A DNA stretch of 33,533 bases from a virus, in the IMG/VR virus record IMGVR_UViG_3300025879_000055, positions 1-33,533 of that record; one strand, 5' to 3'. Each line of letters begins with the position of its first letter. Position 1 is the stretch's first letter. The translations under genes were made by a program, and so were the position numbers. The notes under the pieces are model-generated. The model was not told the DNA's origin, ran no database searches, and saw only the letters and a program-made list of their open reading frames with translations. This document shows, in pieces, positions 12,525 through 33,156 of this stretch.

Positions 12525-12944
12525 ATGGTCAAAGAAAAAGATAAGCAAGACCGAATCTGCTATATTGGCATAAAATACAGCGATATGAAAAAGTATAAGT
12601 TTGTAGACAAATTCAACACGGCAATCATCACGATTCCGCTATTGAGAAAGACAATCACACAACACGATGCCACAGATGAAGATATTGAGTTCTTGTTAAA
12701 AAAGTTTCCAGGCAAGTTTGATCACAACTTTGAGTTGGTTAGCGAATATCAAGCAGAGGCAGAGCCTATTGAAGAGGTTGTAGAAGAAGAAAGAGCCTAT
12801 CCAAAAGGTAAACCATGTATGTGCAAGGAGTGGAGCGTGGAGCATTTAAAAGCGTATGCAAAAGATCATGGTATCAATATCGGTGCATCGCAGAAAAAGG
12901 CTACTATTTTTAAGAAGATAAAAGAGGCAAATGAAGCGCAATAA
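12525..12944 (+). CDS. Small protein with C-terminal LEM/HeH-like (SAP-like) domain
   Basis: 139 aa. A globular N-terminal part (to ~75), an acidic linker (EPIEEVVEEERAYP) and a C-terminal helix-extended-loop-helix (~92-135: WSVEHLKAYAKDHGINIGASQKKATIFKKIKEA, seen as WSVEHLKAYAKDHG then KKATIFKKIKEA). That C-terminal fold is common in small phage head/connector proteins. The ATG sits right after a terminator U tract with no ribosome site, so the in-frame ATG at 12585 (MKKYKFVDKF) is a credible alternative start. It overlaps the portal gene start by 14 bp. Confidence 0.6.
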   Translation: MVKEKDKQDRICYIGIKYSDMKKYKFVDKFNTAIITIPLLRKTITQHDATDEDIEFLLKKFPGKFDHNFELVSEYQAEAEPIEEVVEEERAYPKGKPCMCKEWSVEHLKAYAKDHGINIGASQKKATIFKKIKEANEAQ

Positions 12945-14541
12945 CTTTAAGAATCAATGGTCATCTGTCATTGGTAAGGTGCGAACTTTTGCCAAGAATA
13001 GAATAGCATACATCAATCAGTTAAGTGCTAAGGGATGGTGGTATTTTGGTGAAACAGATGACTTGCCTAATATCATTATTGAAGGCATCAACAATAGCGG
13101 AACAGCTATGCAAGCGATTAAGCGCAAAAAGCAATTCATTCAAGCTGAAGGCTTCAAGTGTGAAATAACGGCTAATGTGCCTGTTGATAAGAAAGGCAAT
13201 ACATTTAACGGCTTACTAGAAGACATCGTAGAGAATACGGTAAAGATGGAAGGCTTTGCATTAAACCTATTCTTCAATAGCGAAGGCAAAATTGCAAGTA
13301 TTAAAAGTGTGCCCATACCATGGATTAGGCGTAAAGATGATGAACATTTTGTCATCAACAGGTTAATGGGTGAGCAGAACTATCGTAAGACTCAAGACAT
13401 TGTGATTCGTGAGTTTGACCCTAGAGAAGATTATGCGGTAAGAGCTGCAAGAATAAAGGCAGAAACTAAGAAGAATAAAGGAAAACAAATAGGGGAGTTG
13501 TTCTACTGCTTTCAACCCAAGCTTGGGAGGAATTATGATATTTACCCTGTGCCTAGTTATTATTCTGCCTTTGATGACATTGTAAGCGATGGCAAGATAA
13601 GCACACTAGAGATGCGGAACATCGTTCAAGGATGGCGTGCGCCTATTGTAATTACTACTGGTCAGATTGATGACATTAACCTAGATGAAAACGATCAGTC
13701 AGACCTTGACAAGTTTAATGAAAGCATAGAAGAGTTTTTAGGCGAGGAGGCTAGTCCTGTGATGCACTTAATGGGCAGAACACCTGAAGAAACGCCACAA
13801 GTCAAAACCATCGACATGAAGGAGATTGTAGACATGACGGAAAAGGCTACGCTTAGAGTGGGTGAAAAGGTCTGTCGATTGATTGGCGTACCTCCTGTCC
13901 TTGTCGGCTTTGCTAAGGCTGGTCAGTTAGGCAACGTGCAAGAGATTAAGAACATGATGACTTTGTTCTATTTGTCTATTAAAGAATGGCAAGAATGGAT
14001 CACTAGAAAGTTAGAGATTATTCAGCCTTGCATGGTAAACGGAGAGATGTACGACTTTGAAATAACCAGGCTGAATCCCTTTGATTTCTTGCCTGACAAA
14101 GTGATTGACAGACTAAGCGATGCCGAGTTAAGAGAATATTTTGAGTTGCCTGAATTAGAAGTTGAAGAAGAACAGCGAACTGCAATAGAAGAGGATATTG
14201 TAGAGCCAATAGAACAGGCAGAGGCGGTTTTAAATCAGTCTTATACTGATTACCCTAAGGCAGCGACAGAAAACGCTAAGATAGCCCTTAGATGGGCTGA
14301 GGAGAATGGCTGGGGTTCATGTGGCACAGCGGTTGGTAAACAAAGAGCAAATCAACTTGCTAAAGGCGAACCAATAAGCGAAGACACTATTGCAAGAATG
14401 GCAGCCTTTGAAAGACATCGTCAGAACAGCGATAAAGAACTAGGCGATGGATGTGGTAGACTCATGTGGTTAGCGTGGGGTGGTGACGAAGGCGTTGAGT
14501 GGGCGCAAAGAAAGTTAGAACAGATTAGAGAAGATAAATAA
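12931..14541 (+). CDS. Portal protein with XkdF-like C-terminal domain
   Basis: 536 aa. Residues ~1-415 have the layout of phage portals: an N-terminal clip/wing region, a segment NIVQGWRAPIVITTGQ, an acidic segment (EEFLGEEASPVMHLMG) and the long helix with RVGEKVCRLIGVPPVLVGFAKAGQLGN before the crown. Residues ~440-530 form a separate small domain (YPKAATENAKIALRWAEENG, WGSCGTAVGKQRANQLAKGE, IARMAAFERHRQN, CGRLMWLAWGGDEGVEWA). This domain is familiar from phage prohead proteins such as XkdF and their relatives. The portal forms the ring through which DNA enters. The next gene follows within 2 bp. Confidence 0.8.
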   Translation: MKRNNFKNQWSSVIGKVRTFAKNRIAYINQLSAKGWWYFGETDDLPNIIIEGINNSGTAMQAIKRKKQFIQAEGFKCEITANVPVDKKGNTFNGLLEDIVENTVKMEGFALNLFFNSEGKIASIKSVPIPWIRRKDDEHFVINRLMGEQNYRKTQDIVIREFDPREDYAVRAARIKAETKKNKGKQIGELFYCFQPKLGRNYDIYPVPSYYSAFDDIVSDGKISTLEMRNIVQGWRAPIVITTGQIDDINLDENDQSDLDKFNESIEEFLGEEASPVMHLMGRTPEETPQVKTIDMKEIVDMTEKATLRVGEKVCRLIGVPPVLVGFAKAGQLGNVQEIKNMMTLFYLSIKEWQEWITRKLEIIQPCMVNGEMYDFEITRLNPFDFLPDKVIDRLSDAELREYFELPELEVEEEQRTAIEEDIVEPIEQAEAVLNQSYTDYPKAATENAKIALRWAEENGWGSCGTAVGKQRANQLAKGEPISEDTIARMAAFERHRQNSDKELGDGCGRLMWLAWGGDEGVEWAQRKLEQIREDK

Positions 14542-27810: not shown

Positions 27811-27854
27811 GGATAATTGGCTTGTCTTTAAGGATATTTTTTTTAACTTTGTTT

Positions 27855-28409
27855 ATGAGTAAATTTTATACAATTCCAAACACTAACGGTCTTTATGAAA
27901 TCAATGAAGGCTCAGAGATAAGAAGAATAAAGCATAGGGTTAAAAACAACATCAACGGAGGAACTAGGTCGGTTGGTGGTAAGATTCTATCTCAAAAAAC
28001 AAAAAGCAACGGATATAAAGAAGTTGCCCTTTATATTGAGCCACAAAAAGGAGTTATGAGGTATGTTCATAGACTTATGTATCAAACCTTTGTTGGCGAA
28101 ATACCCAGTGGTTATGAGATAAATCATATTAATGGTGATAAATCAGATAATAAAATAACTAATCTTGAGCTTGTCACACCTAGCCAAAACAGACTACATT
28201 CATGGCATGTATTAGGAAATAAAAACCTAAAAGCCATGAAGGGAGAGAATCATCCTAGGGCGATTGTTAGCGAAGACTTTGTAAGAAAAGCAAAAGATCA
28301 ATATAAAAACGGTATAAGCGTAAGAGATATTTACGACAACTGTAAAGAGAAAATTACACTATCTTCATTGAGAAAGATTTGCTATGGGCAAACATGGAGG
28401 CATATATAA
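27855..28409 (+). CDS. HNH homing endonuclease, NUMOD4-like, inserted at a gene 3' end
   Basis: 184 aa from the ATG at 27855; a TTG at 27822 would add only hydrophobic non-conserved residues. The N-terminus FYTIPNTNGLYEINEGSEIRR resembles the NUMOD4 repeat. The HNH core is YVHRLMYQTFVGEIPSGYEI then NHINGDKSDNKITNLELVT, with His72, Asn90-His91, Asn99 and Asn103. The C-terminal helix-turn-helix ends in LRKICYGQTWRHI. It cuts DNA at a target site to spread its own gene. It ends exactly where a second copy of the phosphoesterase 3' end begins. Confidence 0.9.
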   Translation: MSKFYTIPNTNGLYEINEGSEIRRIKHRVKNNINGGTRSVGGKILSQKTKSNGYKEVALYIEPQKGVMRYVHRLMYQTFVGEIPSGYEINHINGDKSDNKITNLELVTPSQNRLHSWHVLGNKNLKAMKGENHPRAIVSEDFVRKAKDQYKNGISVRDIYDNCKEKITLSSLRKICYGQTWRHI

Positions 28410-28922: not shown

Positions 28923-30239
28923 ATGGAAAGAGTATACAATAAGCAGGTCAATGTCTATGATGCTTCCATAAGTCGAATTGATTATATCTTTAAAAACTTT
29001 GAGAGAATATATTTAAGCTTTAGTGGAGGTAAGGACTCTGGCGTTATGCTTAATCTTGTTGTGCAATACATGAAGCGAAACAATATAAAAGACAAGATTG
29101 GTGTAATGGTCATGGATAATGAAGCTAATTACACTTATAGCACTGATTTTATGCTAGAAATATTGGATCAGCACAAAGATTATTTAGACATATATTGGTG
29201 CTGCCTTCCTATTACATTACCATGTACTGTAAGCTCTTACGCAACTGAATGGCAGTGCTGGGGCAATGAAGATCGCTCTTTGTGGATTCAAGATAGACCT
29301 GACAGAGACTATGTTGTTACGTGGGAAAATCACATAGCAAAATATAATATGGACTTCTTCCAAGAGAACATGGACTATTCCGTTTTTTGGGACAAGTTTG
29401 GAGATTGGTATGCTCAAGGGAAGAGTTGTGCTTGTCTAATAGGGATTCGTACTGACGAATCATTAAATAGATTTAGGGCTATAATGAATGATCGAAAGCA
29501 AATGAAGGATGGGCATCAATGGACAAAAAAGAATACAGAATACGTTTACAATTGTTACCCAATATACGACTGGAGGACAGATGACGTGTGGGTTGCCAAC
29601 GGTAAGTTTGATTGGAGGTACAATAAACTGTATGATATATTTTATAAATCTGGTATGTCAATCTATCAAATGAGAGTGGCATCTCCTTTCATGTCAGAGA
29701 GTAAATCAAGTCTTAATATGTATCGAGTTATAGATGGTCAGATATGGAGTCGATTATGTGCAAGAGTTTCAGGAGCAAACTTTATTGCAACCTATGGCAA
29801 GCAATTAACGTATCATTCTTTTAAGCTGCCAGAAGGGCATACATGGAAATCCTTTACAAAGTTTTTACTAGATACCTTGCCAAAAGAGGTTGCTGAAAAT
29901 TTTAAAAACCGATTTATTCAGTCTATAAAATATTGGTGGAGAGTAGGTCGGGGGTTAGATGATTCCACCATAAATGAACTGAAAGAAAATAAAATTGACT
30001 TTAAACTAGGGGAATTAACAAGGCATGGAAACAAAAATAAAAGATGTGTTAGAATGCTGCCTCCAGATCATTTAGACCAATTAAAAAGGCATCCTAGTGA
30101 AGTTACTAGCTGGAAAAGATTTGCAATCACAATACTTAAAAATGATCACACTTGTAAATACATGGGGTTAGCTCCAACTATAGAGCAGGCAAAAAGACAA
30201 AGAGAAATAGCAAACAAATATAAAAACGTAGGAAAATGA
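28923..30239 (+). CDS. ibrA: IbrA-like PAPS-reductase/PP-loop protein (DUF3440)
   Basis: 438 aa. The PP-loop SFSGGKDSG (residues 32-40) binds ATP in adenylylating enzymes of the PAPS reductase/ThiI/DndC group. The conserved GIRTDESLNRFRAI and YPIYDWRTDDVW segments (middle), YKSGMSIYQMRVASPF and the late SWKRFAITILKNDHTCKYMGLA are the DUF3440 signature. Family members occur next to ParB-like IbrB in E. coli and many phages; the substrate is not settled. First gene of a coupled operon (4-bp overlap downstream), preceded by a promoter-like motif. Confidence 0.88.
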   Translation: MERVYNKQVNVYDASISRIDYIFKNFERIYLSFSGGKDSGVMLNLVVQYMKRNNIKDKIGVMVMDNEANYTYSTDFMLEILDQHKDYLDIYWCCLPITLPCTVSSYATEWQCWGNEDRSLWIQDRPDRDYVVTWENHIAKYNMDFFQENMDYSVFWDKFGDWYAQGKSCACLIGIRTDESLNRFRAIMNDRKQMKDGHQWTKKNTEYVYNCYPIYDWRTDDVWVANGKFDWRYNKLYDIFYKSGMSIYQMRVASPFMSESKSSLNMYRVIDGQIWSRLCARVSGANFIATYGKQLTYHSFKLPEGHTWKSFTKFLLDTLPKEVAENFKNRFIQSIKYWWRVGRGLDDSTINELKENKIDFKLGELTRHGNKNKRCVRMLPPDHLDQLKRHPSEVTSWKRFAITILKNDHTCKYMGLAPTIEQAKRQREIANKYKNVGK

Positions 30240-30628
30240 AAGTAAGAACAATTGAGCAAACTAAGGACACAGAAAGAGAGGTTAAGTTTACAGGAGGAAC
30301 AAGCTTTAGACCTGTATTAGCTAAAGATGGACTAGGGTTTTCAGTACACAAAACAGTGGTCGATAAAGGTAGGTGGCATTGGCACTATAAAAATCATTTA
30401 GAAAGCTGTTACTGCATAGAAGGGAAAGGCTTATTACATAACCTAGAAACAGGACAGAGCTTTGAAATAAACCCAGACACAGTATACATGTTAGACAATC
30501 ATGATGATCATGAGTTTGAGGCATTTGAAGAGACTATTTTAATTAGCGTATTTAATCCTCCTATTGTAGGAGATGAATCGCATGACAAAAACGGAAATTA
30601 CAAACTAAAAGAAATAAACAAAAAATGA
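30236..30628 (+). CDS. ectC: Ectoine-synthase-like (EctC) cupin
   Basis: 130 aa, EctC length. The sequence follows EctC: FRPVLAKDGLGFSVHKT, HWHYKNHLESCYCIEGKG, INPDTVYMLDNHDDHEF and ISVFNPPIVGDESHDKNG. Glu56, Tyr84 and His92 correspond, one residue off, to the iron ligands I recall for the Paenibacillus lautus enzyme (Glu57, Tyr85, His93). Thr40, Phe106, Glu114 and His116 also match recalled active-site residues, but the recalled Cys105 is Ser104 and Trp21 is not conserved. EctC cyclises N-acetyl-diaminobutyrate to ectoine. EctA and EctB are absent. It overlaps both neighbours by 4 bp, between IbrA and IbrB. Confidence 0.85.
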   Translation: MKVRTIEQTKDTEREVKFTGGTSFRPVLAKDGLGFSVHKTVVDKGRWHWHYKNHLESCYCIEGKGLLHNLETGQSFEINPDTVYMLDNHDDHEFEAFEETILISVFNPPIVGDESHDKNGNYKLKEINKK

Positions 30629-31152
30629 ACAAGTATCAATCACCTGTATATAATGTAATCGCTGTACCTATAGACAAGGTTCAAGCAAATGACTATAATC
30701 CAAACAGTGTTGCGCCTCCAGAAATGGAGTTATTAGAAACATCTATCTGGGAGGATGGGTATACAATGCCTGTGGTTTGTTTTTATGACGACAAAAACGA
30801 TAAATATATTGTTGTAGATGGGTTTCACAGATATACAGTATTAAAAAACAGCCAAAGGATTTTTGAAAGAGAAAACGGAATGCTTCCAGTTTCTGTGATA
30901 GATAAAGATATATCAGACAGAATGGCTTCTACAATTAGACACAATAGGGCTAGAGGGTCTCATAATATAGAGTTGATGAGTACTATAGTGTCAGAGCTAG
31001 TTGAAATGGGCAAGGGAGATGCTTGGATCTGTAAGCATATCGGAATGAGCAAAGATGAGCTATTAAGAATGAAGCAAATTACAGGCTTGGCAAGCTTGTT
31101 TGCTAATAAGGATTTCTCTGATTCATGGGAGGCAGAGTCCGAACTAGTATGA
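30625..31152 (+). CDS. ibrB: IbrB-like ParB/sulfiredoxin-fold protein
   Basis: 175 aa. The ParB N-terminal fold is visible: VIAVPIDKVQANDYNPNSVA (~11-30), EMELLETSIWEDGYTMPVVC (~33-52), the box DKYIVVDGFHRYTVLK (~58-73, with GFHR) and ISDRMASTIRHNRARGSH (~94-111). A helix-turn-helix follows (VEMGKGDAWICKHIGMSKDE). Such proteins bind DNA and hydrolyse nucleotides or transfer phosphate; IbrB partners IbrA. It overlaps the EctC-like gene by 4 bp and the next by 4 bp (ATGA). Confidence 0.87.
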   Translation: MNKYQSPVYNVIAVPIDKVQANDYNPNSVAPPEMELLETSIWEDGYTMPVVCFYDDKNDKYIVVDGFHRYTVLKNSQRIFERENGMLPVSVIDKDISDRMASTIRHNRARGSHNIELMSTIVSELVEMGKGDAWICKHIGMSKDELLRMKQITGLASLFANKDFSDSWEAESELV

Positions 31153-31586
31153 TCACTCAAGAATATAAGCCGTATTGGGATTGGGAATGCTTTAATAATG
31201 GCATGTGGGAAAACTCTTCTGCAGATAAAACAACCCTACTCAATACGGCTATTGATTTTACATCAAACGCTGATCTTTATGGCGACTACATGGATATAGT
31301 TGTCTTTCAATGGAGAAATACAATGATACATCATTTAACAAATCCTTCAATTAACAAAAAAGCTTTTATAGGTCATTGTGCCTGTTCCTATGCTAGAAAT
31401 TTACCAGAAAGCATCGTAAGAAAGGCATGGAAATATTTAAGCAATAATCAGCAAGACAAAGCAAATGACAGGGCAAATAAAGCATATTTAAAATGGTTGA
31501 GCAATTACAAGAAAGAATTAAAGACTATACAAGCAAATGGGAATCAAGGTGTTATCCAGGAGGAATACCAGATGAAGTTCCTTTAA
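31149..31586 (+). CDS. Unknown protein of the Ibr operon
   Basis: 145 aa from the ATG at 31149, set by ATGA overlap; an ATG at 31125 lies inside ibrB and is less likely. Recognisable blocks are YKPYWDWECFNNGMWE (~7-22), FQWRNTMIHHLTNPSINKKA and GHCACSYARNLPESIVRKAW, then a helical C-terminus. Trp/Cys/His content is high. I recall similar genes beside IbrA/IbrB in other phages, but know no function. It overlaps the following gene by 94 bp. Confidence 0.65.
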   Translation: MITQEYKPYWDWECFNNGMWENSSADKTTLLNTAIDFTSNADLYGDYMDIVVFQWRNTMIHHLTNPSINKKAFIGHCACSYARNLPESIVRKAWKYLSNNQQDKANDRANKAYLKWLSNYKKELKTIQANGNQGVIQEEYQMKFL

Positions 31587-31774
31587 GTATTATTGACAAG
31601 GCTCCATCTTGGAAAAAGATATGTATCTGCATATTAAAAAATGATATGTATTTAACAGGCTTAGGGTATAGCGGATTCACTTCAAAATATTATCATGAAT
31701 TAAAAAGAATAGAGTTGCTCGCTAGAGAATCATCAGGAGGGCAAATAAAAATCCCTTTTGATAGGTGTATATAA
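31493..31774 (+). CDS. Stand-alone copy of the IbrA C-terminal motif
   Basis: 93 aa. Residues ~15-60 contain WESRCYPGGIPDEVPL and APSWKKICICILKNDMYLTG LGYSG, close to SWKRFAITILKNDHTCKYMGLA at the end of the IbrA-like protein of the same operon, and to the (Y)xxGIPDE...SW+R.....LKNDY stretch of full-length IbrA. It may be a split or duplicated terminal domain. The start at 31493 gives a 94-bp overlap with the previous gene; no later ATG would keep the motif. Last gene of the operon. Confidence 0.65.
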   Translation: MVEQLQERIKDYTSKWESRCYPGGIPDEVPLSIIDKAPSWKKICICILKNDMYLTGLGYSGFTSKYYHELKRIELLARESSGGQIKIPFDRCI

Positions 31775-31924: not shown

Positions 31925-32185
31925 ATGGCAGGAAGGGGTGGTGCAAGACCTGGAGCAGGTCGTAAAAGCAAGACAGACGAGCAAAGGATTAGAGACTTAA
32001 CCAGTCCTTATGTCGATGGGGCTATTCAGAAGGTTGTTGATATAATGACAAACGCTGATAAGTCTAGCGATCAACTTGCAGCTGCTAAGTTATTGCTTGA
32101 ATATCATTTTGGTAAGCCTAAGCAAAGCACTGACATTACAAGTGGAGGTGAAAAGATAAGCGTTCCTGTTTCGGAATGGATTTAG
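31925..32185 (+). CDS. terS: Terminase small subunit
   Basis: 86 aa, short for the family. The basic Gly/Arg N-terminus MAGRGGARPGAGRKSKTDEQ is a hallmark of phage small terminases; helices follow (IRDLTSPYVDGAIQKVVDIM, QLAAAKLLLEYHFGKPKQS). It recognises the packaging site and loads the large subunit. A clear promoter lies directly upstream. It is separated from terL by 955 bp containing an RNA region and an HNH gene, instead of the usual close pairing. Confidence 0.8.
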   Translation: MAGRGGARPGAGRKSKTDEQRIRDLTSPYVDGAIQKVVDIMTNADKSSDQLAAAKLLLEYHFGKPKQSTDITSGGEKISVPVSEWI

Positions 32186-32613: not shown

Positions 32614-33156
32614 ATGAAAGAAATATGGAAAGACATAATAGAATTTAACTCTGAGTATCAAATATCTAATTTTGGTAGAATCAGAAGTAAGGAAGCAGTT
32701 ATTATCAGATCAAATGGCAGACCACACAAAAGAATTAGTAAAATCCTTAAGACAGCTGTAAGTAAAAAGTATAAATACCCACGTGGTGCGGTTTGTGTTA
32801 ATAAGAAAATGAAACCTTACAAGATACACAGGCTTGTAGCTAGATACTTTGTTGCAAACCCTTATGGAAAGCCTGAGGTTAATCACATAGATGGAAACCC
32901 ACAAAACAATCATTACACAAATTTAGAATGGGTTACTAGGCAAGAAAACATAAAACATTGCATTGACAACAACCTTCAAACTGCTTTTAAGGGTGAGGAG
33001 GTTGGAACGTCTATTTTAAAGGAAGATCAAGTAAAGCAAATAAGAAAAGAGTTTAAACCAAGAATTGTAACAAGGTCATTTTTAGCACAAAAATACAATG
33101 TGTCAGAAGCGACAATAAAAGATATTATATACAGAAGGACATGGAGGCACGTGTAA
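32614..33156 (+). CDS. HNH homing endonuclease with NUMOD4, between terS and terL
   Basis: 180 aa. NUMOD4 at residues 3-28 (EIWKDIIEFNSEYQISNFGR). HNH core: YKIHRLVARYFVANPYGKPE (69-88) then VNHIDGNPQNNHYTNLEWVT, with His72, Asn90-His91, Asn99 and Asn103. A C-terminal helix-turn-helix (LKEDQVKQIRKEFKPR, RSFLAQKYNVSEATIKDIIY) ends in RRTWRHV, like the other HNH protein here (GQTWRHI). The last 16 bp overlap the terL start. Known terminase-linked HNH proteins of HK97 type are different; NUMOD domains point to a mobile homing gene. Confidence 0.9.
   Translation: MKEIWKDIIEFNSEYQISNFGRIRSKEAVIIRSNGRPHKRISKILKTAVSKKYKYPRGAVCVNKKMKPYKIHRLVARYFVANPYGKPEVNHIDGNPQNNHYTNLEWVTRQENIKHCIDNNLQTAFKGEEVGTSILKEDQVKQIRKEFKPRIVTRSFLAQKYNVSEATIKDIIYRRTWRHV

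Follow-up and report, generated by a model that had tools for sequence, protein, structure and literature searches.

The DNA analysed here (hereafter the window) is the whole 33,533-nucleotide stretch of the IMG/VR virus record IMGVR_UViG_3300025879_000055, in which five overlapping genes form a compact run (Table 1). The second of them encodes a protein of the ectoine synthase (EctC) family; it is preceded by an IbrA-like gene and followed by an IbrB-like gene and by two further genes, named X and Y. A preliminary description had delimited the EctC-like open reading frame exactly and assigned it to the right family, well beyond what chance would produce, but had presented it as a stand-alone gene, which it is not: the EctC gene overlaps both IbrA and IbrB by four bases (ATGA), a third ATGA overlap joins the stop of IbrB to the start ATG of X at 31149 (a longer X open reading frame begins at 31125), and Y overlaps X. 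The absence of EctA and EctB claimed in the same description was borne out, as no such gene was found in the window with profiles built from five ectABC loci.

Table 1. Genes of the five-gene cassette of the window, with the basis of their assignment.
Feature	Positions	Strand	Length (aa)	Basis
IbrA-like PP-loop protein (PAPS_reduct + DUF3440)	28923..30239	+	438	Pfam, PHROG 2302
EctC-family cupin	30236..30628	+	130	Pfam, NCBIfam and PDB matches, predicted fold
IbrB-like ParB/sulfiredoxin-superfamily protein	30625..31152	+	175	PHROG 2159 ParB-like
Protein X, all-helical, no named family	31149..31586	+	145	Conserved in EctC loci
Protein Y, resembles the C-terminal part of DUF3440	31493..31774	+	93	Pfam PF11922 positions 138-174, E 2.8e-07

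The IbrA-like protein matches both PF11922 (E 8.5e-58, 195 bits) and PF01507 (E 4e-10, 40 bits) above their cut-offs, as well as PHROG 2302 (E 6e-105). It carries an SGGKDS motif and is 63% identical to the homologues that adjoin EctC in phages XCL1123 and Gaia. The IbrB-like protein is recognised by PHROG 2159 (E 1e-82), its Pfam ParB_N match (0.004) lies below the cut-off for that family, and its matches in the PDB, to SbnI and ParB, are weak. A free-serine-kinase activity (SbnI/SerK) was considered for IbrB and rejected, the E-values reaching only 0.002 to 0.02 and the region of the SerK catalytic glutamate looking ParB-like (NDYNPN). The structure model of X (pLDDT 92) has no match in the PDB (best Z 3.8). 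Regarding the surroundings, two HNH homing-endonuclease-like genes (NUMOD4 + HNH_3; 27852-28409 and 32614-33156) flank the cassette on either side, and a small protein encoded directly past it (31925-32185) has a weak terminase small subunit match (PHROG 2538, E 2e-4). Elsewhere in the window, a portal-like protein (12931-14541) shares 59-61% identity over its last 100 residues with proteins from tailed viruses of haloarchaea (HGTV-1, HRTV-4); for the remainder, the resemblance is to Bacteroides phage portals and reaches just about 21%.

The product of the second gene belongs to the EctC family by all tests of sequence and fold. It matches Pfam PF06339 (Ectoine_synth) with an E-value of 9.7e-42 (142.7 bits, cut-off 27) and NCBIfam PRK13290 with 148 bits (cut-off 128). 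It also matches the EctC structures determined for P. lautus and S. alaskensis, with E-values of 2e-25 to 4e-24, and in a profile-profile comparison the viral EctCs align with bacterial EctCs at a probability of 100 (E 4e-55). A structure model computed from 66 viral sequences (mean pLDDT 93) has EctC entries as its best structural matches (Z 18.4-19.8), the closest being 5BXX from S. alaskensis (Z 19.8, rmsd 0.9 A over 112 residues), while the best non-EctC cupin reaches a Z of 13.3 only. A place among generic cupins, which the preliminary description had named as the outcome that would speak against its assignment, is thus excluded by both the family scores and the fold.

The active site can be read against that of the P. 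lautus enzyme, in which Glu57, Tyr84 and His92 bind the iron, the substrate is contacted by Trp21, Arg25, Asn38, Thr40, Tyr52 and Glu57, and the product by Ser23, Asn38, Tyr52, Glu57 and Phe106 (PMC6344544). In our alignment, the equivalents in the window protein are Glu56, Tyr84 and His92 for the metal, then Ser23, Arg25, His38, Thr40, Tyr51 and Phe106, with Glu114, His116 and His54 (P. lautus Glu114, His116 and His55) also kept, so that the residues listed earlier for iron and substrate binding (Glu56, Tyr84, His92, Thr40, Phe106, Glu114, His116) all match their P. lautus counterparts. Position 38 is His in eight of the nine canonical EctCs that we aligned, as it is in the window. Across the 81 aligned proteins from related cassettes (see below), all three iron ligands are present without exception, as are Ser23, Arg25, Thr40, Tyr52, His55, Glu114 and His116. 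Purifying selection on these proteins is strong (dN/dS 0.03-0.25, median 0.067 over 63 close pairs). The two differences reported from the sequence, at the tryptophan and at a cysteine (position 104), are real: these residues are Gly and Ser, respectively, in the window, where a Phe18 occupies the place at which some solitary EctCs carry a shifted Trp. No Trp occurs within the eight residues preceding Ser23 in 77 of 78 cassette EctCs, which have Phe or Tyr there. By contrast, Trp21 is present in all nine canonical EctCs, and the six sequences initially taken as solitary EctCs carry a Trp either at 21 or three residues before it. Trp-21 is found without exception in 437 EctCs from ect clusters and is needed for activity, the W21A mutant retaining 9.7% (PMC6344544).

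To the preliminary description, a phage copy of such a gene was unusual; we found some 100 different viral loci. Scanning IMG/VR with a profile returned 165 relatives, of which 80 were kept. A second scan, made with a bacterial-EctC profile and thus without bias towards the cassette, yielded 80 loci, almost all from the same family as the cassette EctC. After removal of duplicates, 106 distinct EctC-positive loci were available, comprising the window, phage records, viral contigs and one MAG contig. IbrB accompanies the EctC gene in 105 of them and Y does so in 104, while IbrA and X are each found in 101. The order IbrA-EctC-IbrB-X-Y is observed in 75, with other orders in most of the others. 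Loci with an incomplete set mostly lie at contig ends; L055/L214 (a single contig) has no IbrA in the 5-6 kb upstream, and in L250 no IbrA was seen. EctC and IbrB share one open reading frame in 40 loci and are separate genes in the other 66. With 106 loci, a neighbourhood of EctC with IbrA and IbrB due to chance is ruled out, and the fact that the order is shuffled but the content kept argues for a joint function. EctA and EctB were absent from all 106 loci when searched with the same five-locus profiles.

Among phage records, relatives in which EctC adjoins IbrA are found in Pseudoalteromonas phage XCL1123 and in Mycobacterium phages Gaia and Nebkiss, that is, in phages of hosts as unlike as Pseudoalteromonas and Mycobacterium smegmatis. 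Some phage records annotate the protein as "ectoine synthase/ParB multidomain protein"; in Gaia and XCL1123, this label designates the same cassette, with a single 299-aa EctC-IbrB protein in Gaia and separate genes in the window, and the GenBank records of these two phages propose no function for it. Two records with ectB turned out to be bacterial ectB-ectC pieces and were set aside, namely MT835761.1, which was the first match in the phage collection, and IMGVR_UViG_2900685891_000001, the only locus of the viral collection with ectB; both, filed as phage or virus, are likely misassigned bacterial DNA.

Farther out, the neighbours in the 106 loci serve mainly in replication and recombination (DEAD/ResIII helicase, YqaJ, SSB, primase), and no single one is a constant companion. 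Likewise, no DNA-modification gene is consistently linked to the cassette, a C5-cytosine methylase lying nearby in only five of the 106 loci. In these five (e.g., L022:7671-8747), the methylase has an SPPC motif, which has been mentioned for the cytosine carboxymethyltransferase CmoX (PMC12783734). Outside viruses, a scan of 84,980 species genomes with a strict degenerate pattern recovered one locus, a complete cassette on a 6.7-kb Saprospiraceae MAG contig, and 395 genomes of the phylum of this MAG yielded only the same locus and weak cupins. Within the reach of these searches, the cassette is thus chiefly a viral one. Direct derivation from a host ectC was also considered and rejected, no close bacterial source having been seen in the strict pattern scan of the 84,980 genomes.

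In the EctC tree, which is unrooted and includes a small bacterial sample (15 rows, mostly plasmid-borne), a branch with maximal support (100/100) separates the 69 rows of cassette EctCs from the bacterial EctCs, canonical and solitary alike. The phage copies thus have a clade of their own, a possibility that the preliminary description had proposed to examine, and they do not group with the EctCs of ectABC clusters. One sequence first labelled solitary (L105) carries ectAB; the cassette clade holds regardless of it. With no Trp21, no linkage to ectAB and a phylogenetic place apart from ectABC clusters, the cassette EctC should, judging from these features, not be filed as an ectoine synthase.

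The linkage does not hold in the opposite direction. Although 215 phage records have IbrA-like matches, EctC occurs in only four of them, and it was absent from all 80 further viral IbrA loci retrieved by a mixed profile, which show the IbrA-IbrB pattern, mostly with X (about 60 of 80). The EctC-bearing IbrAs form one clade of the IbrA tree (SH-aLRT 100). Taken with the EctC-less loci, this ties EctC to a single IbrA lineage, together with Y. Four cysteines (window IbrA residues 93, 94, 101 and 112) are conserved in this clade, and the first and third of them are mostly missing from the sampled EctC-less IbrAs. In eight of the 80 EctC-less loci (L116-L195), IbrB and X share one open reading frame, which suggests that the two act together.

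Compared with known systems, the cassette EctC resembles the L-ectoine synthases of P. lautus and S. alaskensis in its fold, its Glu/Tyr/His iron ligands and the residues Ser23, Arg25, Thr40, Tyr52, Phe106, Glu114 and His116, but differs from them by the missing Trp-21, the frequent Ser in place of Cys104, the absence of ectAB, the linkage or fusion to IbrA/IbrB and the separate clade. With the solitary EctCs of bacteria (P. syringae, rhizobia, cyanobacteria), the function of which has been called unresolved (PMC5924519), it shares the lack of ectAB, as well as a Cys at position 59, found in four of the six that we sampled; these, however, have Trp at 21 or shifted by three residues towards the N-terminus, varied neighbours without IbrA/IbrB and a position outside the cassette clade. 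On a plasmid of Streptomyces sp. NBC_00523 (L108), a solitary EctC sits in what looks like a biosynthetic gene cluster (AMP-binding enzyme, carrier protein, tryptophan-synthase-like genes) and may be another EctC acting outside osmolyte synthesis.

As for its partners, the cassette has in common with the IbrA/IbrB modules of E. coli (YbdN/YbdM), Listeria (lmo1310/1309) and streptococcal phages (IbrAB) an IbrA made of PAPS_reduct and DUF3440, a ParB-like IbrB and the adjacency of the two genes, whereas the modules found elsewhere have no EctC, which is present with a separate Y in one IbrA clade only. The only role given for IbrA/IbrB in the annotated records and the literature found is co-activation of prophage genes; the literature on EctC with ParB, DUF3440 or IbrAB gives no function for the cassette. 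A further parallel is provided by DNA modification systems, in which a PP-loop or base-exchange enzyme likewise stands beside a ParB-superfamily protein, i.e., DndB with DndC, and DpdB, a ParB-like ATPase (PMC10853773, PMC12839542). No EctC is reported in those systems, however, and since the window IbrA scores 22.5 bits against the DndC model (cut-off 290.4), the Dnd comparison holds at the superfamily level only.

Altogether, these features suggest that the cassette EctC is probably an iron-dependent enzyme of the EctC type that acts on a new substrate, working in a phage variant of the IbrA-IbrB module and not in osmoprotection. In EctC, the amide oxygen of the substrate binds Fe(II), the amine attacks the amide carbon and water is lost (PMC6344544). 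The cassette protein keeps the parts for this chemistry while the aromatic residue packing against the diaminobutyrate chain is changed, from which we infer the same chemistry on another acyl-amine substrate; the earlier suggestion that the protein may cyclise a related substrate is still the best guess. In the EctC-like step, an amide or acyl group would be activated by a Lewis acid and attacked by a nearby amine, with the release of water. PP-loop ATP-pyrophosphatases with an SGGKDS-type motif adenylate their substrates, as established for the superfamily. IbrA, a PP-loop protein of the ATP-pyrophosphatase/PAPS-reductase superfamily, could be the natural provider of an activated intermediate for EctC, the ParB-like IbrB may deliver the reaction to its target or supply NTP-driven control, and the EctC-IbrB fusion would tie the cupin to this partner. 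Because ParB proteins accompany PP-loop enzymes in DNA modification and because EctC is found fused to IbrB, a nucleic acid or nucleotide comes as the first guess for the target; by analogy, it may be the likeliest case, but we propose it tentatively. More doubtful still is a fully specified system, dominated by viruses, in which IbrA, the EctC-type cupin, IbrB, X and Y would perform a so far undescribed ATP-driven modification, EctC closing a ring or dehydrating an acyl-amine bound to a nucleobase or nucleotide.

The main rival to this enzymatic reading is that the EctC-type cupin is a sensor, binding a small ligand and a metal to regulate the ParB-like IbrB, with IbrA and IbrB switching phage or prophage genes. 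Cupins do serve as ligand-binding parts of regulators, EctC and IbrB are fused in 40 of the 106 loci, and annotated records name IbrA/IbrB as co-activators of prophage gene expression. Yet, the iron ligands, Thr40, Tyr52, Glu114 and His116 are invariant in all 81 sequences, beyond the expected need of ligand binding, and EctC is a separate gene in 66 loci, which makes us regard a sensor as rather unlikely. Less likely again is a defence or counter-defence device, directed, for example, at host nucleotides or modified DNA, in which EctC would tailor a small molecule instead of DNA. Proteins of the ParB/Srx superfamily in conflict systems have been suggested to be nucleases or nucleotide-degrading effectors (PMC10853773) and our searches found the cassette almost exclusively in viruses, but no PADLOC family matches it beyond weak DndC and ParB-like hits.

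A further alternative is an auxiliary metabolic gene, the phage enzyme converting N-gamma-acetyl-diaminobutyrate from the host or the environment into ectoine and thereby protecting the infected cell against salt stress. The protein does belong to the EctC family and retains every metal ligand and the majority of the substrate contacts, an H. elongata ectC mutant produced ectoine with the solitary EctC of P. syringae (PMC5924519), and an estuarine study has read viral ectoine synthase in this way (PMC13079714). Osmoprotection is nonetheless unlikely, and synthesis of ectoine from a host intermediate, as the preliminary description had also envisaged, is a reading to which we give very little credence: the gene is locked to IbrA/IbrB in almost every viral locus, up to fusion with IbrB, and no EctA or EctB was found in any of the 106 loci; the Trp-21 on which the activity of ectoine synthase so largely depends is missing; the clade is separate; and the phages that carry the cassette have diverse hosts, including Mycobacterium smegmatis. 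Some ectoine might nevertheless arise from a side activity.

The linkage of viral ectC to IbrA/IbrB means that claims of osmoprotection, such as that of the 2026 study which lists viral ectoine synthase among genes for salinity stress (PMC13079714), need checking, and that the gene neighbourhood should be examined. Beyond this, the cassette gives a handle on two questions at once, the role of solitary EctCs and the role of IbrA/IbrB, and direct tests are possible, as culturable phages carry it (Gaia, Nebkiss and XCL1123). If the five-gene modification system proved true, the EctC family would have a role outside osmolyte synthesis.
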